A stretch of 64,000 nucleotides of DNA from an uncultured Selenomonadales bacterium (GTDB lineage Bacteria; Bacillota; Negativicutes; Acidaminococcales; Acidaminococcaceae), in the NCBI GenBank assembly GCA_900316935.1, contig ONEW01000004.1, positions 62,001 to 126,000 of the forward strand, written 5' to 3'. Position numbers and translations under genes: made by a program. Shown one piece after another: positions 3,848 to 57,633 of this stretch. Each line of letters starts with the position of its first letter. Within the stretch, counting starts at the first letter, position 1. Under the pieces are notes generated by a model. The model was not told the DNA's origin, did no database searches, and worked only from the letters and a program-made list of their open reading frames with translations.

Positions 3848-4689
3848 GATGCAGCCCCCCTTCTGCCGGACACAGCATCCAGGACGGCCAGCAGCACGAA
3901 AAAGAGCAGGGCCAGGATGAGGGGGCTGTAGATGGCGTAACGTCCCGTACCGCCCCAGATGAGCCCCATATAGTCTCCCACAGGGAAGGGCAGCCGGGCA
4001 CTCAGCAGCACCTGTTCCGCCTGTGCCACCAGCAGGATCGGGAACAGACCCAGGACAAAGTTCAGTACGGGGGCAAGGGCTTCGGCCAGGCGGAACCGGG
4101 ATTCCCCGCGCGCCGCCCCGGCCGACACGGATCGGTAATACATACCGCAGGCACCGAGCCGCAGCCCCCAAGTCAGCCCGAGGAGTGCGAACACCACGGC
4201 CAGGAGCGGTTTCACCCAGGCCGCGGCTTCCGCCATGGGCAGGCTCAGTGTCCCCTGGCAGAGCTGCCAGAGGCCTGCGAAGCCCAAGGTCATGGGTACC
4301 CCGGCCACGCAGAACAGGGCCAGGCGGTACCCCGTCCGGGAGGTCGCGATGACGACACCGCTCAGGGCGAAGACCAGCTGGGCCAGGAAGAGGGCCGCAG
4401 CGGAAAAACAGACGAAGGGCAGGGCGGCGTTGGGATACTGGAGCAGCAGGCAGCCAAGGCCTGCCGCGGTCACCGCGTAGCCGGCCTCCTGCAGGGCCGC
4501 GGAGCCGCTGAACCCTTTATCGTCGCCGCGGCAGCCTGCCTGCCAGAGGAACCGTGCCGCCAGCAGCGTTTCCAGCAGCCCGCAGGCCGTCAGGGCCAGG
4601 CTGCCCCGGAAGGTGAAGGCCCAGCCCGTCAGGAACAAAAGACAGGCGCCCACCAGAAGCACGATGGGCGCCGCATAAAACCGTTTCAT
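3844..4689 (-). CDS. NuoN/HyfB-like half-length membrane protein
   Basis: 281 aa, with about eight hydrophobic helices. The start is ATG 4689, which overlaps the amidohydrolase stop in a TGATG arrangement. AGVPMTLGF (about residue 125) resembles the GLPPTxGF signature of proton-translocating antiporter-type subunits (NuoL/M/N, MrpA/D, HyfB/F), though the second Pro is absent. Family members are normally 450-650 aa, so this would be only part of the fold. It is translationally coupled to the genes on both sides. I infer an accessory membrane-arm protein; it could equally be an unrelated polytopic protein. Confidence 0.4.
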   Translation of the reverse strand: MKRFYAAPIVLLVGACLLFLTGWAFTFRGSLALTACGLLETLLAARFLWQAGCRGDDKGFSGSAALQEAGYAVTAAGLGCLLLQYPNAALPFVCFSAAALFLAQLVFALSGVVIATSRTGYRLALFCVAGVPMTLGFAGLWQLCQGTLSLPMAEAAAWVKPLLAVVFALLGLTWGLRLGACGMYYRSVSAGAARGESRFRLAEALAPVLNFVLGLFPILLVAQAEQVLLSARLPFPVGDYMGLIWGGTGRYAIYSPLILALLFFVLLAVLDAVSGRRGAAS

Positions 4690-33891: not shown

Positions 33892-34563
33892 TCAGCCGTT
33901 GCCGGCTGCCCTTCCCCAGGACCGTACATCCGTCGTCATGAGAGTCACGGCCGCTTCCCGGGAGTGTTCCAAGTGAATCCGCATCGCCTCTTCCGCCGCG
34001 GTGTAGTCCTTTTTCAGGAGCTCCTCGAGGATGGCCTCGTGTTCGCGCACCGTCGCTTGCAGCCTATATTCCAGCCGTTCGCCGGACAGGATGCGCACCC
34101 GGTGGTTTTGTGCGAAGATGCGCTGCATCAGTTCCATCAGGTACGTATTGCCACAGGTTTCGATGAACAAGTTGTGCAGCTCGCTGTCCAGGTCGTACTC
34201 GTTCAAATCGTGTTCCAGCGCGGCACTGGCATTGTTCTTCAGGAGCATCTCCTCCAGTTTGGCATCCGAAATGAGATGTCCGTATTTACGCACGACAGGC
34301 GGCTCCACGAGGAACCGTACTTCGTAAATGGCGTTGATGTCCGCCAGCGTGATGTCGTTCACCAGGATGCCCCGTTTCGGCAGGATCGTGATCAGCCGGT
34401 CCTGCTCCAGTTTGTTCAGAGCCTCCCGGATGGGCGTGCGGCTGGCGTCGATGGCCCTGATCAGCTCCGCTTCCACCAGGAACTGTCCCGGCAGGAACTC
34501 GCAGCGGATGATCCGCTCCTTGATGTAGTTGTAGGCTTTGTCCTTCAGGTTTCTTTCCACCAT
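33892..34563 (-). CDS. GntR-family regulator, FCD type (uronate regulon, first copy)
   Basis: 223 aa from ATG 34563 (MVERNLKDKAYNYIKERI), with a GGAG upstream; the open frame extends to 34692 but across the promoter. Winged helix at residues 1-75 (IDASRTPIREALNKLEQDRLI) and FCD effector domain from about 85 (AIYEVRFLVEPPVVRKY, H-rich sites DLNEYDLDSELHNLFIETCGN, HRVR, EHEAILEEL). FadR-type FCD proteins usually bind a metal and a sugar acid. It is the first gene of the TRAP-1 transcript and faces kdgAK, so it likely controls both. Confidence 0.92.
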   Translation of the reverse strand: MVERNLKDKAYNYIKERIIRCEFLPGQFLVEAELIRAIDASRTPIREALNKLEQDRLITILPKRGILVNDITLADINAIYEVRFLVEPPVVRKYGHLISDAKLEEMLLKNNASAALEHDLNEYDLDSELHNLFIETCGNTYLMELMQRIFAQNHRVRILSGERLEYRLQATVREHEAILEELLKKDYTAAEEAMRIHLEHSREAAVTLMTTDVRSWGRAAGNG

Positions 34564-50086: not shown

Positions 50087-50778
50087 GGCGGATTCCTCTT
50101 AACTGCCATAGCCGGTGCCTGGAGGACAAACGCCCCGTCCCGGCGTCCGTCGATGGTCAGGTTGCCCCCGATGGCTTTCAGCTTTTCCCGCAGGTAGGAT
50201 ACGTAGATCCACACAATACCCCGGTCTTCCTGCTGTTCATCCTGCCAGATCCGGTCGAAGAGCATCTTGGTTTCGCAGGGTTTGCCGGGATGCTGCATGA
50301 AATACTTCATCAGCTGGATTTCCTTGGGGGACAGCCGTACGCTGCTCTTGCTGGACAACTCTCCTTCTGCACAGTTCAGGGTTACGGTACCGGCCTGGAG
50401 GGTATCCCGGTTGAATTCCTCCTGCCGCCGGGTCAGGCTCCGGATCCGGGCCAGCATCTCCCCCATGGCAAAGGGTTTCGTGAGGTAGTCGTCGGCTCCG
50501 GCATCGAGCCCGGTAATCCGGTCGTCCACTTCCGCCTTGGCCGTGAGCATGATTGCCGGCGTCCGGTCCCCTTCCTTCCGCAGTTCCGTCAGGGCAGCGA
50601 TTCCGTCCTTCACCGGCATCATAATATCAAAAATCATGGCATCATAGACATTCCGGCGGGCCTGGTCCACGGCAGCCTGTCCGTCGTACACCGCATCCAC
50701 TTCATAGCCGGAATGTTCCAGCACGGCGCACAGTGCCATGGACATGGCTTTTTCATCTTCTGCAAGTAAAATCTTCAT
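50077..50778 (-). CDS. OmpR-family response regulator
   Basis: 233 aa from ATG 50778 (MKILLAEDEKAMSMAL). The receiver domain has acidic pocket EDE and phospho-Asp in YDAMIFDIMMPVKDG (about residue 51), Lys in YLTKPF (about 102). A C-terminal winged helix follows (LSPKEIQLMKYFMQHPGKPCETKMLFDRIW). Begins inside the end of the alarmone synthetase gene (26-nt overlap) and is followed by its kinase. Confidence 0.94.
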   Translation of the reverse strand: MKILLAEDEKAMSMALCAVLEHSGYEVDAVYDGQAAVDQARRNVYDAMIFDIMMPVKDGIAALTELRKEGDRTPAIMLTAKAEVDDRITGLDAGADDYLTKPFAMGEMLARIRSLTRRQEEFNRDTLQAGTVTLNCAEGELSSKSSVRLSPKEIQLMKYFMQHPGKPCETKMLFDRIWQDEQQEDRGIVWIYVSYLREKLKAIGGNLTIDGRRDGAFVLQAPAMAVKRNPPWI

Positions 50779-51433
50779 GGGTTCCTGACTCCTTTCCCGG
50801 GTCAACCGTTCCGCTTTCCCGGATCAGTTTCCGGATGGTTTCCATGGACAAATCGCAGGCTGCCAGTTCGTCGGCGCACCGCTTCAGTTCCTGTCCGATC
50901 AGTTCCGGATTCCGGATGTTCCGTTTGTACTTCAGTTCGTGTTCCAGGCTGGCCCAGGAATCCATGGCGATAGTCCGGAGCTGGACCTCGGCATAGAAGA
51001 TCCCCGGGTCGTTCCCCTCCACATCGGGGAAGGGTTCCTCCAGCCGGAGGATCAGGTGGTAGGACCGATAGCCGTTGGGTTTGACATTGCGGACATAGTC
51101 TTTTTCCTGGATGACGGTGCAACCGGGGATGGCCCGGAGCAGCCGGAGATTCCGGTCGATGTCGCTGAGAAAGCGGCAGACGATCCGCAGGCCGATGGCA
51201 TCGCGGATGGCATGGAGGGCCGAGCGGGCATTGAACGGAAGCCCCTTCCTCCGGCATTTCTCCTTCATGCTGGCAGTACCCTTGATTCGGTAAAGCAGAT
51301 GCTCGTAAGCATTTTCTCCGTGGGTTTCCATTTCTTTCCGGTTGTAGGCCTGGATATGCCGGACCAGCTGATCCCGGACCTTTTCCAGCACCGGCCGCCA
51401 GTCTTCATAGCGGCTGTCCCTAGGTTGGTTCAA
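50753..51433 (-). CDS. Small alarmone synthetase (RelA/SpoT synthetase domain, RelQ-like)
   Basis: 226 aa if read from TTG 51433 (LNQPRDSRYEDWRPVLEKV), which has AAAGGAGG 7 nt upstream; no ATG fits. Synthetase motifs: YRIKGTASMKEKCRRKG (about residue 47), RDAIGLRIVCRF (about 78), DYVRNVKPNGYRSYHLILRLEEP (about 110) and AEVQLRTIAMDSWASLEHELKYK (about 146). No HD hydrolase, TGS or ACT domain, so it is a stand-alone (p)ppGpp synthetase. First gene of an operon with an OmpR-type two-component system. Confidence 0.92.
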   Translation of the reverse strand: MNQPRDSRYEDWRPVLEKVRDQLVRHIQAYNRKEMETHGENAYEHLLYRIKGTASMKEKCRRKGLPFNARSALHAIRDAIGLRIVCRFLSDIDRNLRLLRAIPGCTVIQEKDYVRNVKPNGYRSYHLILRLEEPFPDVEGNDPGIFYAEVQLRTIAMDSWASLEHELKYKRNIRNPELIGQELKRCADELAACDLSMETIRKLIRESGTVDPGKESGTHEDFTCRR

Positions 51434-51600
51434 TGGAATTCCTCCTTTGTGCAGAGCCCCTGACAAATTCGATTATATATTGATTGTATCACAGGAATAT
51501 GGAATTTGTATGAAGAAAGTCGGAATCCCATGTGTCAACAGGTTCCCGGTGAACGCTGCATCATTATATAGCACTATATAGCGCTGCAAGCAGGTTTATT

Positions 51601-51653
51601 CATTTTACCGGGAATCATTTTACCCTAAGTCCTGTTCCATGATGTGGTATAAT
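51601..51653 (+). promoter_or_regulatory. Putative lytS promoter with direct repeats
   Basis: TATAAT at 51648-51653 without a good -35. Upstream are two copies of CATTTTACC (51601-51609 and 51616-51624), period 15 bp. The interval from 51434 to 51742 also contains two ATATAGC copies (about 51567-51582) and no gene. Confidence 0.4.
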
Positions 51654-51742
51654 TATTAGTAAAAACAATCCGTTACGATGTATCCATAGACGGGCCCGTC
51701 AAGGACATGTCCTGTCCAGGCGGCCGGGAGGAGGGAAATCCT

Positions 51743-53422
51743 ATGCGTTTATTGTTCATGCTCCTCGGCAACGTGTGCATCTCCGCCATGGTAGCCTACC
51801 TGCTGGGACGTAACAAGCGCTTCCGGCAATATATCATGGCGCCCCTGAACCTGCAGTCGGCCGGCGTGTTCACCGTCGTCTGTTCCCTGCTGGCCATCAT
51901 CTCGTCCTATTATGGCACCCGTATCAACGGGGCCCTGGCCAGCACGCGCATCGTCGGCGTCCTCATGGGCGGCATCATCGGCGGTCCCTGGGTCGGTATG
52001 GCCACGGGCATCATCGGCGGCCTGCACCGCTATTCCCTGGGGGGATTCACGGCGTTCAGCTGCGGTCTCGCCACTTTCTTGGCCGGCATCATGGCCGGAC
52101 TGGTCCGAAGCCGTTACCCCTTCGATAAAATGAACTGGAAGATTGCCGCCGGCATCGCCCTCCTCGCCGAAATCATCCAGAAAAGCCTGACGCTCATTCT
52201 GGCGAAGCCTTTCGAACAGGCCCTGGCCTTTGAGAAAGCGGCAGCCCTGCCGACGACGGCGGTCACCATCATCGGCACGGTGCTCTTCGTCCTGATCCTC
52301 CAGGACATGGAGAAGCAGTATGAAATGGCCGGTGCCTCGGCAGCCCAGATTGCCATGCGTATCGCTAACGAAACCATGCCGTACCTGCGCAAGGGCCTCG
52401 ACATGGAATCGGCCCGGAAGGCGGCGGACATCATCGTGTCCCTGGCCGACGTCGACGCCGTCGCCATCACGAACGAGCATAAGTCCCTCGCCTATGCCGG
52501 CATCCCCACCAAATCCCATAAACCGGGCAATCCCCTGTACTTTCCCGACACGGAGGAAGTCTTCAAGACCGGCAAGACGGTCGTCGTCACAGGGGCTCAC
52601 GGCTGCGGCGACCCGGACTGCCCACTCTACTACGGCATCGTCGTACCCCTCATGGTACACGGGAAACCGGCCGGCGTCTTCCGCTTCTACCAGACGCGCA
52701 AGAAAGGCCTGTCCCAGGTCGACATCGAGCTGGCCGAAGGCGTGGCCCGGCTGCTTTCCACCCAGGTGGAACTGGCGGACTACGAGGAACAGCAGGTCCT
52801 GCGCGAGCAGGCCGAGTTCAAAGCCCTGCAGTCCCAGATCAACCCCCATTTCCTGTTCAACACCCTGTCCATCATCATCTCCCTGTGCCGCAACCATCCG
52901 GAAACGGCGCGGGAGCTGCTCATCAATCTGGCAGACATGCTGCATTTCACCTTCGCACAGCACGAACCGCTCATTCCCCTGGAAGAGGAACTGCACAACG
53001 CGGAAGCGTACCTGAACATCGTCAAGGCCCGTTTCGGAAGCCGGCTGACCACGGAAATCATCCTGCCAGAGGACACGGACGTACGCGACGACTTCGTCCC
53101 GGCCTTCATGCTCCAGCCTCTGGCGGAAAACGCCATCACCCACGGCCTCTTCCAAAAAACGGAAGACTGCCGCCTGGCCATCCGGGTAGCCTTGGACGGG
53201 GCCGGGAACCATCTGATCATCCGCGTCATCGACAATGGCGTCGGCATGTCGCCGGAAACGCTGCAAAAGCTGAAGAACCTGGAATCCAAGGGCATCGGCA
53301 CGGCCAATGTCATCAAACGCATCGACCGCATCTACCAGGGCCGGGGAGACATCACGTTCCAAAGCCGCGAAGGCGAAGGAACGACTGTCACCATCACCCT
53401 GCCCATTCGTCAGGAGGCGTAA
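51743..53422 (+). CDS. LytS-type sensor histidine kinase
   Basis: 559 aa from ATG 51743, with GGAGGAGGG upstream. It has a 5TMR-LYT membrane sensor (residues 1-195; NLQSAGVFTVVCSLLAIISSYYGTRINGA, GGPWVGMATGIIGGLHRYSLGGFTA), then a GAF-like domain (about 220-350), His-kinase motif QSQINPHFLFNTLSIIISL (phospho-His at about 372) and HATPase_c with LQPLAENAITHGL and GTANVIKRI. Partner of the LytTR regulator that follows 4 nt later. In other bacteria LytS homologues (BtsS, YpdA, LytS) sense pyruvate or similar metabolites; that is the likely role here. Confidence 0.93.
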   Translation: MRLLFMLLGNVCISAMVAYLLGRNKRFRQYIMAPLNLQSAGVFTVVCSLLAIISSYYGTRINGALASTRIVGVLMGGIIGGPWVGMATGIIGGLHRYSLGGFTAFSCGLATFLAGIMAGLVRSRYPFDKMNWKIAAGIALLAEIIQKSLTLILAKPFEQALAFEKAAALPTTAVTIIGTVLFVLILQDMEKQYEMAGASAAQIAMRIANETMPYLRKGLDMESARKAADIIVSLADVDAVAITNEHKSLAYAGIPTKSHKPGNPLYFPDTEEVFKTGKTVVVTGAHGCGDPDCPLYYGIVVPLMVHGKPAGVFRFYQTRKKGLSQVDIELAEGVARLLSTQVELADYEEQQVLREQAEFKALQSQINPHFLFNTLSIIISLCRNHPETARELLINLADMLHFTFAQHEPLIPLEEELHNAEAYLNIVKARFGSRLTTEIILPEDTDVRDDFVPAFMLQPLAENAITHGLFQKTEDCRLAIRVALDGAGNHLIIRVIDNGVGMSPETLQKLKNLESKGIGTANVIKRIDRIYQGRGDITFQSREGEGTTVTITLPIRQEA

Positions 53423-53426
53423 CATC

Positions 53427-54203
53427 ATGTCTTATAAAACCGTCATCGTCGACGATGAAATGCCCATTTGCGAAGAGCTGGAATACCTGCTGGAGTCCCA
53501 TCCGGACTTCCAGGTCGCGGCCAAGTTCAATTCTGCCCAGAAGGCGCTGGCCTATCTGTCCGCCAATCCCACCGACCTGGTCCTGCTGGACATCAACATG
53601 CCCGGCATGAACGGTCTGGAATTCGCCCGCTGCGTCGGTGAAATGCAGTTGAGGACCTTCATCGTCTTTGTCACGGCATACGAAAAGTACGCCGTAGACG
53701 CTTTCAGCACGCCCGCCATCGGCTATATCACGAAACCCGTGTCGCAGCTCTCCCTGAGCCGCACTCTGCGCAAAGTCCGGGGCCTGCTGGACGCCCTGCA
53801 CAAACCGGGCACGCCGGAAGGAGGGGCCGGCAAAGGGCCGCTGGGACACTCTGAAGCCACTGTCAGGGGCAACAAAATCACCGTGTCCCGGGACGGTAAA
53901 CTCTATCCTGTCACCAAATCCGAAATCACCCTTGCCTACGTGCGGAATAAGGAAGTCTTCGTGCGCACAGCCCGGGGCGATTACTACGCCCAGCTCAATA
54001 TGCAGGAAATGGCGGCCTTTTTGTCCGGCCCCCCGTTCCTGCAGGTACACCGGCAGTACATCGTGAACCTCGACTACGTGGAAGAGATCGTCCCCTGGTT
54101 CAACGGGGCCTACATGCTCCACATGAAAGGAAACAGCTCGACGGACATCCCCATCAGCCGGAACCATATCCAGGAAGTCAAACAGCGCCTGGGCTTCCGG
54201 TAA
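53427..54203 (+). CDS. LytTR-family response regulator
   Basis: 258 aa from ATG 53427, with AGGAGG upstream. Receiver domain with VDDEMPICEE and phospho-Asp in LVLLDINMPGMNG (about residue 53), Lys in YITKPVS (about 104). A C-terminal LytTR DNA-binding domain follows (about 145-255; KITVSRDGKLYPVTKSEITLAYVRNKEVFV...FLQVHRQYIVNLDYVEEI). It faces an SLC13 transporter whose promoter contains paired AlgR-like sites. Confidence 0.95.
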   Translation: MSYKTVIVDDEMPICEELEYLLESHPDFQVAAKFNSAQKALAYLSANPTDLVLLDINMPGMNGLEFARCVGEMQLRTFIVFVTAYEKYAVDAFSTPAIGYITKPVSQLSLSRTLRKVRGLLDALHKPGTPEGGAGKGPLGHSEATVRGNKITVSRDGKLYPVTKSEITLAYVRNKEVFVRTARGDYYAQLNMQEMAAFLSGPPFLQVHRQYIVNLDYVEEIVPWFNGAYMLHMKGNSSTDIPISRNHIQEVKQRLGFR

Positions 54204-54215
54204 CGGAACCAGCAC

Positions 54216-54262
54216 AAAAAAGCCGCTCCCCGACGTTTGCCGACGCCGGGGAGCGGCTTTTT
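54216..54262. terminator. Bidirectional terminator between convergent lytR-like and transporter genes
   Basis: AAAAAAGCCGCTCCCCG/CGGGGAGCGGCTTTTTT around a short loop, with A and T runs on opposite sides, serving both strands. Confidence 0.9.
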
Positions 54263-54272
54263 TAGGAGAAGA

Positions 54273-55802
54273 TCAGAGAATGCCTAAAAATCTCCAATAG
54301 GTCTGCGCGAAGACCAGCAGCAGGATGTAGCCGATGATGGTAATGGGGATGCCGACCTTCATGCAGTCTTTGGCTGTAAAGGTTTCCGTCGCGAATGCCA
54401 GGATGCCCTGCGGGGAGTTGACCGGCAGGATGAAACCGAAGCTTACGACGAACTGCAGCAGCATGGTGATATCGATCATGTTCAGACCCGGGATGTTCAG
54501 GCTCTTCAACACGGCAATCATGATGGGGATCATGGAAGATGCCACTGCCGTCGCACTGGCGAAGCCCAGATGGACCACAATCAGGAAGGCCGCCAGGATG
54601 GCGAATACGGCGAACACGCCCATGGCTGCCAGACCGAGGGTTGTCACGAGCTGGGTAGCCAGCCACATGGCCGCCTTCGTACTAAGCAGGGCGGAACCCA
54701 GGCTGATGCCGATACCGAAGAGCACCAGGGTGCCCCAGGATACGCGGGACTGTGCTTCCTTCCAGGTCATGATGTCGATGCCCGGCAGGAACATGATGGT
54801 GATGGCGATGACCGTGGAGGCCGTCGTGGAAACCGGATGCAGAACCTTTTCCGTGACCCATGCGGCGAGCAGGAGGACGGAGATGACCAGCAACTTCTTT
54901 TCTTTCGGATGCATCGGTCCCAGTTCTTCCATGGACTTTTTGACGGTCTCGTCGCCGCCTTCGACTTCATCCATTTCAGCCGGCAGCAGCTTCATGCAGA
55001 CGAAATAGAGGACGACGGACATGATGGCCGCATAGGGAGCGGCCGCTACAAACCAGTGCAGCCACGTGATGGTGCCGCCCAGTTCCCTTTCAATGAAGCC
55101 CAGGGCAACCATGTTCTGGGCTGCCGCGGTCTTGATCCCGATGTTCCAGATGGAGGCCGCGTGTACCGTGACGACCATCAGCAGCGCGGCGAAACGGCTC
55201 TGATTGGACAGGCCGAACGCAGCAATGATACCGAGGACGATCGGGATGATGCAGCCGACACGGGCGGTCGTGCTCGGTACGAAGAAGGCCAGCACGAAGC
55301 CTACGAAAATCATGCCTGCCACAATGCGGCTCGTCTTCGACCCGACTTTGGACAGGATGGTGAGGGCAATGCGTTTATCCAGACCGGTATTGGTCATGGC
55401 CGCCGCCAGGAACATGGCGGCACCGACCAGTACCGTGCCGCCGGCACTGATGCCGTTGAATGTCATCGTGACGGCCTTCCCGAACCCGATGACCTTGCCG
55501 GCCGCTGCCTGAGCCGGTACCAGGGAAGGCGCCGTGCCTAACAGGACCAGCATCAGGGACGCGATCAGGGTGGCACTGACAGGATACGTGACGGCCTCCG
55601 TGATCCAGGTCACTACGGCGAAGCACAAAACGCCCAGCATACGCTGCCCTGCGATAGACAAGCCTTTCGGCGTGGGCAGCGCCAATACGATTACCAGCAC
55701 GATCAATGCGAGGATGAGACCGTATTTTTTAGCGAAGCTGGTACGCATGGGCGGTGTCCCCTCCAACGCCTTCTTTTCCAACCCTTGTTCTTTCTCAGCC
55801 AT
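54273..55802 (-). CDS. SLC13/DASS-family sodium:dicarboxylate or related anion transporter
   Basis: 509 aa from ATG 55802 (MAEKEQGLEKKALEG), with GAGGAGGG upstream. About twelve helices; ITEAVTYPVSATLIASLMLVLLG near the N-terminus, FFVPSTTARVGCIIPIVLGI (about 180) and FGFILPVNSPQGILAFATE (about 460) contain the SNT/SPT-like Na+-carboxylate sites of the family. Substrate could be succinate, malate, citrate or sulfate. Divergent LytTR-like repeats upstream suggest induction by the LytS/LytTR pair. Confidence 0.92.
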   Translation of the reverse strand: MAEKEQGLEKKALEGTPPMRTSFAKKYGLILALIVLVIVLALPTPKGLSIAGQRMLGVLCFAVVTWITEAVTYPVSATLIASLMLVLLGTAPSLVPAQAAAGKVIGFGKAVTMTFNGISAGGTVLVGAAMFLAAAMTNTGLDKRIALTILSKVGSKTSRIVAGMIFVGFVLAFFVPSTTARVGCIIPIVLGIIAAFGLSNQSRFAALLMVVTVHAASIWNIGIKTAAAQNMVALGFIERELGGTITWLHWFVAAAPYAAIMSVVLYFVCMKLLPAEMDEVEGGDETVKKSMEELGPMHPKEKKLLVISVLLLAAWVTEKVLHPVSTTASTVIAITIMFLPGIDIMTWKEAQSRVSWGTLVLFGIGISLGSALLSTKAAMWLATQLVTTLGLAAMGVFAVFAILAAFLIVVHLGFASATAVASSMIPIMIAVLKSLNIPGLNMIDITMLLQFVVSFGFILPVNSPQGILAFATETFTAKDCMKVGIPITIIGYILLLVFAQTYWRFLGIL

Positions 55803-55912
55803 TTTTGAATCCCTCCTCAATAACCCAACAGAAATAAAATGATGATGAATGATGATTGCGGAACCCCGTATGATTCCACGGTTTCAACTGTCTTCCCGGG
55901 TCCCCTGTCCTT

Positions 55913-55988
55913 ATTATAGGAAGAAGCGGGCATGAAAAAAAGCTGATTCGCCCGAACGGTCGAAACTGCAAACCGAATGGTCGAAATC
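55913..55988 (-). promoter_or_regulatory. Transporter promoter with two AlgR/LytTR-like direct repeats
   Basis: On the minus strand the repeats read TTTCGACCATTCGG (in 55988-55973) and TTTCGACCGTTCGG (in 55967-55952), period 21 bp, i.e. the same DNA face. They lie 34-70 bp upstream of TATAAT (55918-55913), which has only a poor -35. ACCGTTCG matches the known AlgR (LytTR-family) core CCGTTCGTC. This is an activator-dependent layout. Confidence 0.75.
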
Positions 55989-56031
55989 AGCTGAATTTTT
56001 CAAACTCTTTTTGAAATTGTATCGCTGCGGT

Positions 56032-57633
56032 TTAAAAAGGCCTCCAGACACTCATGATGGCCCGTGCCACATGATAGCCGTCCAGTGCGGCGCTCATGAT
56101 GCCGCCGGCATAGCCGCACCCTTCCCCGCAGGGATAGAGGCCGCCGTGTGTCACGGACTGATAGTCCTGGCCGCGCAGAATGCGCAGCGGCGCCGATGTA
56201 CGGGTCTCCACGCCCGTCAACATGCCTTCCGGCCCGTCGAAGCCCTGGATGCGCCGTCCGAACCAGGCAATGCCCTGTTTCAGCGTCGCAGCAGCAAACG
56301 GAGGCAAGACCTCGTCCAACCGTACCGCCGTCACACCGGGACGGTAGCTGTACGTACCGGCCAGGGCCGGCGCCGTTCCCTGCAGGAAGGTTTCCACACT
56401 CTGCGCAGGAGCCCGGTAGTTCCGGCCGCCGGCTGCAAATGCCAGTCGTTCATAACGGCGCTGGAACGCGATGCCCGCCAAGGGATCCGCACCGAAGTCC
56501 GCCGGCGTCACATTGACGACCAGGGCGCTGTTGGCGATACCTGAATCGCGCCCATACAGGCTCATGCCGTTAACGACGACGCCGCCTTCCTCGGAGGCTG
56601 CCGCCACGACCTGCCCGCCCGGACACATGCAGAAGGAATAGGCCGTACGGCTCCGGTCCGGCGTATGGTACACGAGGGCGTAATCCGCGGGACCAAGCCG
56701 CGGATGCCCGGCAAACCCGCCGTACTGCGCCCGGTCGATCAAGGCCTGGGGATGCTCGATACGCAACCCTACGGAAAAAGCCTTGCCCTCCATGCCGACG
56801 CCGTGCGAAGCCAGGACGGCGTAGGTGTCACGGGCACTGTGCCCGCAGGCCAGGATGGCCGTCTCCGCCGGCAGCACTTCGCCGCCGTTCAATACCAGGC
56901 CGGTCAGCCGTCCATTACGGAAACGGAAATCCGTCACCTGGGTTTCGCAGCGGATTTCCCCGCCCAGACGCCCTATTTCCGCGGCCAGGCCCTGCACCAT
57001 GGCACGCAGCCTGTCCGTTCCCACATGGGGTTTATGCTCCGTCAGGATTTCCGGCGGCGCGCCTGCCGCCACAAAGGCCTGCAGGATATCCGCCATGACC
57101 GGGTCATTGACGCGGGTCGTCAGCTTCCCGTCGGAAAACGTACCGGCGCCGCCCATGCCGAACTGGACATTGGACACCGGATTGAATTTTCCCGTACGCC
57201 AGAAAGCCTCTACATCTTCCACGCGGCGCGACAGGGCCCGGCCCCGCTCCACCAGGATGGGACGGTACCCGTAGCGGGCCAGTTCCAAAGCCGCCACAAG
57301 CCCCCCCGGGCCGGCGCCGATGACGACGGGCCGTTCCGTCAGGGGAACCGTTCCCAGCTGCGGTGCAGCCGGCACGGCCTTTGCGTAAGGGGTAACGCCG
57401 TTCCTGCCCAGCAGCTTCCGGGCGAAGCCGGACGGGACATCCACCTCGGCGGCCACATGGTACAGCAGGCACACGTTGTCCTTATGCCGCGCGTCGACGG
57501 CACGGTGCAGCACCGTGCATTGCGTAATGGCACCCGGCCGGATGCCGAGTTTCTTCGCCACACATTCCCGCAGGGTCTTTTCCTGCTTCAAGGATAGCTT
57601 CACATCGTTTACGCGAAGCGTCAGTTTTGCCAT
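56032..57633 (-). CDS. NAD(P)/FAD-dependent dehydrogenase, COG2509 type
   Basis: 533 aa. An N-terminal 90-residue domain of unknown role (RVNDVKLSLKQEKTLRECVAKKLG), then FAD-binding VVIGAGPGGLVAALELARYG (about residue 102), the family block NPVSNVQFGMGGAGTFSDGKLTTRV (about 155) and the C-terminal GLYPCGEGCGYAGGIMSAALDGYHVA (about 500). Uncharacterised conserved flavoprotein. It begins 11 nt after cdaR and is probably co-transcribed with cdaA-cdaR. Confidence 0.9.
   Translation of the reverse strand: MAKLTLRVNDVKLSLKQEKTLRECVAKKLGIRPGAITQCTVLHRAVDARHKDNVCLLYHVAAEVDVPSGFARKLLGRNGVTPYAKAVPAAPQLGTVPLTERPVVIGAGPGGLVAALELARYGYRPILVERGRALSRRVEDVEAFWRTGKFNPVSNVQFGMGGAGTFSDGKLTTRVNDPVMADILQAFVAAGAPPEILTEHKPHVGTDRLRAMVQGLAAEIGRLGGEIRCETQVTDFRFRNGRLTGLVLNGGEVLPAETAILACGHSARDTYAVLASHGVGMEGKAFSVGLRIEHPQALIDRAQYGGFAGHPRLGPADYALVYHTPDRSRTAYSFCMCPGGQVVAAASEEGGVVVNGMSLYGRDSGIANSALVVNVTPADFGADPLAGIAFQRRYERLAFAAGGRNYRAPAQSVETFLQGTAPALAGTYSYRPGVTAVRLDEVLPPFAAATLKQGIAWFGRRIQGFDGPEGMLTGVETRTSAPLRILRGQDYQSVTHGGLYPCGEGCGYAGGIMSAALDGYHVARAIMSVWRPF

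Follow-up and report, generated by a model that had tools for sequence, protein, structure and literature searches.

A LytS/LytTR system predicted to control a DASS exchanger and a 2-oxoacid oxidoreductase in an uncultured Selenomonadales bacterium

Introduction

What does a LytS-type sensor kinase detect when conserved operators tie it to an unfamiliar class of transporter? Few LytS-type kinases have known ligands, and the direct binding evidence that we found is for pyruvate. The question is raised by a 64,000-nucleotide stretch of contig ONEW01000004.1 (positions 62,001 to 126,000) from an uncultured Selenomonadales bacterium (assembly GCA_900316935.1), referred to here as the window, in which the genes for a LytS-type kinase and a LytTR response regulator (together LytSR) are convergent with dass, a gene encoding a DASS/SLC13 permease preceded by a pair of repeated sites. 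Our analysis suggests that this LytSR probably responds to a 2-oxo acid outside the cell, with 2-oxoglutarate the leading candidate, and switches on both dass and korDABC, the genes of a predicted 2-oxoglutarate-type ferredoxin oxidoreductase (KOR) elsewhere in the genome. The same sensor frame would thus be linked to another transporter class and to one catabolic enzyme, pointing to a specific new ligand.

Results

The features on which the argument rests are as follows, numbered from the first nucleotide of the window.

51743-53422, plus strand: LytS-type sensor histidine kinase, 559 aa (Pfam 5TM-5TMR_LYT 2.3e-41, His_kinase 2.5e-24, HATPase_c 1.9e-13 and GAF)
53427-54203, plus strand: LytTR response regulator, 258 aa (Pfam LytTR 1.5e-23, Response_reg 2.3e-21)
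54273-55802, minus strand: DASS/SLC13 permease (PF00939 3.2e-107; TIGR00785 above cut-off)
55973-55986, minus strand: distal LytTR-type site, TTTCGACCATTCGG, an exact match to TTTCGACCrTTCGG
55952-55965, minus strand: promoter-proximal LytTR-type site, TTTCGACCGTTCGG, an exact match to TTTCGACCrTTCGG
55918-55913, minus strand: perfect -10 box (TATAAT) for dass, lying 33 bp downstream of the proximal site

The window belongs to a draft genome (G000) of 1.95 Mb in 46 contigs, 92.5% complete, and genome-wide statements about it are based on pattern and family searches. Orthologs of the regulator and of the DASS protein were mapped across 120 related genomes, and the locus regions then compared; the class was taken to be Negativicutes. 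The closest named relative in a contig search, with a 92% identical regulator, was the uncultured Selenomonadales bacterium isolate RUG113.

Gene positions and Pfam matches agree with the convergent arrangement described in the initial annotation. Only 4 bp separate lytS from the regulator gene, the phospho-acceptor motif of the kinase (INPHFLF) aligns with H382 of BtsS, and a sensor kinase beside a receiver-LytTR regulator, with Pfam scores far over the cut-offs, places the pair among the LytS/LytTR two-component systems. The transporter probably starts at the ATG at 55802, which has GGAGGG ahead of it, rather than at the mechanically called TTG at 55820.

Read along the minus strand, the promoter region consists of the distal site, 7 bp, the proximal site, 33 bp and TATAAT. 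The initial annotation had reported two 14-bp copies exactly 21 bp apart, and the copies and their period, start to start, are exact. LytTR operators are generally built of two 9-11-bp repeats and a spacer of 11-13 bp (PMC4847170), and the 21-bp-period repeat near the dass promoter has this form. The promoter had also been called weak, a fair description: the -10 box is perfect and the -35 position, at 17-bp spacing, reads only TTTTTT. An activated promoter would usually look like this, its -35 poor and a repeat immediately upstream. The proposed match to the AlgR core, CCGTTCG, stands for the proximal site, where it is exact, but not for the distal site, which has one mismatch (CCATTCG). 'LytTR-type direct repeat', close to that of BtsR, is the better label.

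Within the window the 14-mer has ten other matches, each with two or three mismatches; shuffled sequence yields as many, as expected of chance. Scanning the window with a motif model trained on the window genus alone gave this pair a score of 30 and no second pair above 16. Searching the whole of G000 for paired 14-mers, with up to three mismatches allowed, returned it as the sole match with fewer than three; the four matches at three mismatches did not exceed the backwards control. This last search is blind to the kor promoter, where the partner site is weak.

Conservation of the repeat

Of the 22 genomes in which the regulator has an ortholog, 16, representing eight families, have lytSR and dass side by side, mostly in convergent orientation. 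In a seventeenth, G083, the convergent neighbour of lytSR is korC. The congeners G008 and G009 keep both sites in front of dass with the 21-bp period unchanged, and in G009 the flanking sequence has largely diverged. Two further congeners, G007 and G013, own the transporter (82-83% identical) without the LytSR of G000, G008 and G009, and their dass promoters contain no such pair. In G033, from another genus, both sites again lie upstream of dass at the 21-bp period, in a degenerate form whose score alone is unremarkable.

The pattern extends to another family (G072, G089, G098 and G105), in which GACTGTTCGG and, at 21 bp, GACCTTTCAG or TACCGTTCAG sit directly ahead of a korDABC-dass operon, with lytSR next in order. 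The window-genus model gives this pair 21-23 bits, and at most 17.5 bits elsewhere in those loci. G100 carries a BtsR-like variant upstream of dass, TACCTCTCAG-21-TACCCTTCAG, which the genus model missed. The kor-dass operons without adjacent lytSR in G103, G067 and G077 have no such pair. The distance from the proximal site to the -10 box is 33, 34, 34, 33, 36, 36 and 36 bp in G000, G008, G009, G033, G089, G098 and G105; in G072 a clear TATAAT is absent at the expected distance.

It is very probable that this LytSR regulates dass, because the sites are kept with LytSR and lost in G007 and G013, the distance to the -10 box stays within 33-36 bp, and a second promoter, that of kor, has a like pattern. 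The link between LytSR, repeat and transporter that had been drawn from the window is thus strongly supported by comparative evidence: conservation, co-loss, spacing and the kor promoter.

Two arrangements in the G072 family were noted in passing. A third copy, AACCGTTCAG, precedes the pair by 20 bp, so that three tandem sites lie upstream of korD (L166 ~579, L169 ~542). One repeat copy overlaps a terminator-like hairpin, and in the window genus too the repeats sit within a hairpin that is probably the upstream gene's terminator (window 55935-55992, L156 ~4500-4550, L169 ~535-600); in two families, then, a putative operator would overlap a terminator.

The kor operon as a second target

In G000 korDABC lies on a different contig from dass (C35, promoter at 34300-34380), and its promoter reads AACCGTTCAG, 34 bp, TATAAT. 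The site is kept in G008, as AACCGGTCAG, and in G009, as GACCGGTCGG; the G009 copy is preceded at 21 bp by a partner, AACCGGCAGG. Searched against whole genomes, the pattern ACCRKTCRG-N33..36-TATAAT has exactly two matches in each of G000, G008 and G009, always at dass and kor, and its backwards control has none in these three genomes. Across the 11 congeners without this LytSR, the pattern has four matches in total and the control five; all four lie away from kor and dass, two of them antisense within coding regions. We consider it likely that kor is a second target of this LytSR.

The KorA proteins of the relatives pass the general 2-oxoacid model NF006412, and KorB is nearest the 2-oxoglutarate model but below its cut-off. 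KorA and KorB of G000 are 86% and 84% identical to their G013 counterparts.

These promoters also bear on whether the repeats are an operator at all, as both sites at dass sit inside a further feature.

55935-55992, minus strand: inverted repeat AGCTGATTTCG...CGAATCAGCT followed by T7, enclosing both sites (from the sequence; RNA folding gives about -24 kcal/mol for 90 nt)

This inverted repeat is probably the terminator of the upstream FAD-oxidoreductase gene (56032-57633, minus strand), and the repeats could be mere arms of that terminator, or chance, with no role in regulating dass. However, the sites persist in G033 and at kor promoters without the same hairpin, keep a fixed distance to TATAAT and track the presence of LytSR. 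On these grounds we rejected the terminator-only explanation, which appears highly improbable, and treat the repeats as a putative LytTR operator.

The transporter

With 237 bits against TIGR00785 (cut-off 198.6) and 359.9 against PF00939 (cut-off 27), the window protein clearly belongs to the DASS family. TIGR00785 is named for sodium-coupled anion symporters, and passing its cut-off would favour a Na+-coupled symporter. Against this, the alignment puts an Arg and a His at the equivalents of LaINDY Arg159 and His392, in the window protein and in its relatives. These residues replace the Na1 and Na2 ions, and are reported to be conserved in DASS exchangers (DASS-E) and absent from cotransporters (PMC7553777). 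The equivalents of LaINDY Glu146 and His401 are not conserved, which makes the residue test good but incomplete. With this exchanger hallmark at the Na+-surrogate positions, symport seems quite improbable.

The neighbours of dass suggest what is exchanged. Across the class, relatives of dass adjoin kor genes: in G084, G072, G089, G098, G105, G103, G067, G077, G026, G007 and G013, and in G060 and G074 dass occurs with korC fragments at contig ends. The order in G007 and G013 is dass-sucC-sucD-korA, and G013 also shows korB and part of korC. Together, 2-oxoglutarate import, its oxidation to succinyl-CoA, ATP synthesis by SucCD and succinate export through the same carrier would form a short but complete pathway. 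Because the DASS-E Arg and His are present, we lean towards a 2-oxoglutarate:succinate-type antiporter.

The same switch might instead sense or carry another di- or tricarboxylate, such as succinate, malate, fumarate or citrate. Exchange of succinate for other dicarboxylates is typical of DASS exchangers (PMC7553777), and exchanger residues are also found in E. coli CitT, which has both, and in TtdT, which has Arg at both positions, one of them in place of His. Yet the conserved neighbours of dass are kor, with sucCD in congeners, and in the loci read we recognised no gene for citrate lyase, fumarase or tartrate dehydratase next to dass. We regard this alternative as unlikely, and 2-oxoglutarate as the better candidate.

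The sensor pocket

The pyruvate site of BtsS comprises R72, R99, C110 and S113, and the published model places R72 and R99 in contact with pyruvate's keto and carboxyl oxygens (PMC10653868). The window LytS and 15 other DASS-linked kinases keep R72, R99 and C110 (R69, R96 and C107 in the numbering of the window LytS). Given the modelled contacts of R72 and R99, a 2-oxo acid is a natural guess for the ligand. S113 is replaced by Ala in 15 of the 16 DASS-linked kinases, including that of the window, where R192 is also replaced, by Leu.

Every one of the 16 DASS-linked kinases has the lysine found at position 147 of the window kinase, as do four more whose neighbours are kor, TRAP or unresolved. 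BtsS (Met155) and YpdA have Met at this position; two MFS-linked kinases that lack R99 and C110 have Ile or Leu there. Lys147 could be a ligand for a second carboxylate.

A strict equivalent of BtsSR or YpdAB would sense extracellular pyruvate, and would induce the transporter and KOR in a response to pyruvate or overflow. The conserved R72, R99 and C110 are consistent with this, as is the fact that pyruvate is the signal for both BtsS and YpdA. However, S113 and R192 of BtsS are not conserved, an invariant Lys147 stands where BtsS and YpdA have Met, and the predicted regulon consists of a putative DASS-E exchanger and a 2-oxoglutarate-type oxidoreductase, with no pyruvate carrier. Pyruvate is not our first choice of signal because the transporter resembles a 2-oxoglutarate/succinate exchanger; we think a pyruvate response rather unlikely. 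Our preferred ligand, 2-oxoglutarate, is itself a tentative choice, at somewhat short of even chances. More tentative still is the fullest form of the proposal, in which LytS may be an extracellular 2-oxoglutarate receptor using Lys147 for the second carboxylate, at the head of a two-promoter regulon, widespread in the class, for 2-oxoglutarate:succinate exchange and ferredoxin-linked oxidation.

Other LytSR relatives have different neighbours. In G115 (L170 2207-6899) and G094 (L173 2055-6840) lytSR is convergent with an MFS gene that has a similar 21-bp repeat upstream, a layout resembling YpdAB-YhjX; their sensors lack the equivalents of BtsS R99 and C110 and are likely to have a different ligand. 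In G081 (L172) and G111 (L171), read by eye, LytSR relatives lie beside TRAP transporter-like and altronate dehydratase-like genes, which suggests that LytSR systems of this class control a broader range of genes for carboxylate uptake.

Neighbouring features

Two further features of the window and one of another contig complete the description.

54216-54263, no strand assigned: hairpin AAAAAAGCCGCTCCCCG...CGGGGAGCGGCTTTTTT between the convergent genes, flanked by an A tract and a T tract (read from the sequence)
50753-51466, minus strand: small RelA/SpoT-type (p)ppGpp synthetase, YjbM-like, below the NCBIfam cut-off, divergent from lytS

The hairpin is probably a bidirectional terminator serving the regulator and transporter genes. 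Contig C16 of G000 encodes a second, divergent LytTR protein (951-1190, 34.6 bits) beside an obg GTPase-like gene; it was set aside as a binder of the repeats because the sites track the presence of LytSR.

Discussion

The picture that we propose is of a single switch acting on two promoters. The membrane sensor LytS would bind an extracellular 2-oxo acid, 2-oxoglutarate being the likeliest, and phosphorylate the LytTR regulator. Two regulator molecules on the 21-bp direct repeat upstream of the weak -35 would then recruit RNA polymerase to the transporter gene, and the same regulator would act at the korDABC promoter. The DASS protein would bring 2-oxoglutarate in and carry a C4 dicarboxylate such as succinate out, and KOR would turn the imported 2-oxoglutarate into succinyl-CoA, reduced ferredoxin and CO2. 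The gene identities, the sites with their conservation and their co-loss with LytSR, the two-promoter pattern, the linkage to kor and sucCD in relatives and the exchanger residues come from the computation itself; that the regulator binds, that it activates and does not repress, what LytS senses and which compounds are exchanged are our inferences.

Several points weigh against this picture. When 21-bp repeats were sought de novo ahead of dass in G101, G113 and G119, nothing convincing emerged, and in G060, G064, G074 and G084 the operon promoter is cut off at contig ends. At the kor promoter one site is good and its partner, 21 bp upstream, is weak, and the pattern that joins this promoter to dass was composed after the kor sites were known, so that its weight rests on the control genomes. 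In G000 kor and dass are on separate contigs, and sucD is present only as a fragment at a contig end. As for the ligand, the residues kept in the sensor are the ones that bind pyruvate in BtsS. BtsS was not induced by alpha-ketoglutarate (PMC5431176), which means that the pocket must be altered if the window sensor answers to 2-oxoglutarate.

If the proposal is right, the locus would represent a route for 2-oxoglutarate cross-feeding or fermentation in rumen-type bacteria, and would assign a role to a clade of DASS proteins now labelled as sodium symporters by automatic annotation. In the open-access literature we found no LytS/LytTR system tied to 2-oxoglutarate or to DASS transporters; most subscription papers were outside this coverage.

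Comparison with known systems

The transporter shares its exchanger Arg (PSxxAR) with LaINDY, CitT, TtdT and the plastid DiT proteins, and its His with LaINDY and CitT. By sequence its nearest solved relatives are DiT2.1, VcINDY and LaINDY, and it scores only about 80 bits against any solved structure. Its PSTTAR and FASATA motifs are unlike those of CitT and TtdT.

AlgZ/AlgR of Pseudomonas aeruginosa has in common with the window system a LytTR regulator and, at the proximal site, the CCGTTCG core. The AlgR consensus is CCGTTCGTC, and its sites are often single, distant or inverted and not tandem pairs at 21 bp (PMC4064291). The physiology of AlgR is unrelated, and the window sites match only the 7-bp core, exactly in one of the two, which places them outside the AlgR regulon.

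YpdAB-yhjX (PyrS/PyrR) of E. coli has in common a LytS/LytTR pair, pyruvate-type sensor residues and a 21-bp period, YpdB using tandem 10-bp sites with an 11-bp spacer (PMC4847170). It differs in its MFS transporter target and in its site sequence, GGCATTTCAT.

BtsSR-btsT of E. coli (formerly YehU/YehT-yjiY) shares a 5TMR_LYT LytS kinase, a LytTR regulator, a carboxylate transporter, a small number of targets, the sensor residues R72, R99 and C110 and a 21-bp ACC repeat. Reading the btsT promoter of MG1655 directly, we found GACCGCTTAC and AACCACTCAG, both containing ACC and 21 bp apart. However, BtsSR controls a CstA-family pyruvate:H+ symporter, whereas the window system would control a DASS exchanger and kor; S113 and R192 of BtsS are Ala and Leu in the window LytS; and btsT lies apart from btsSR in E. 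coli, while the window transporter is convergent with lytSR. The best NCBIfam models for the window regulator, BtsR (131.5 bits, cut-off 246) and LytR (130.8 bits, cut-off 375), both fall below threshold, in the first case the BtsR equivalog cut-off. The parallel with BtsSR-BtsT and YpdAB-YhjX first suggested for this locus therefore holds for architecture and for the 21-bp period; the class of target differs, as the initial annotation had itself pointed out, and the predicted regulon also takes in korDABC. The locus appears to work like BtsSR-BtsT, yet by the NCBI model it is not a member of BtsSR, and its target is different.

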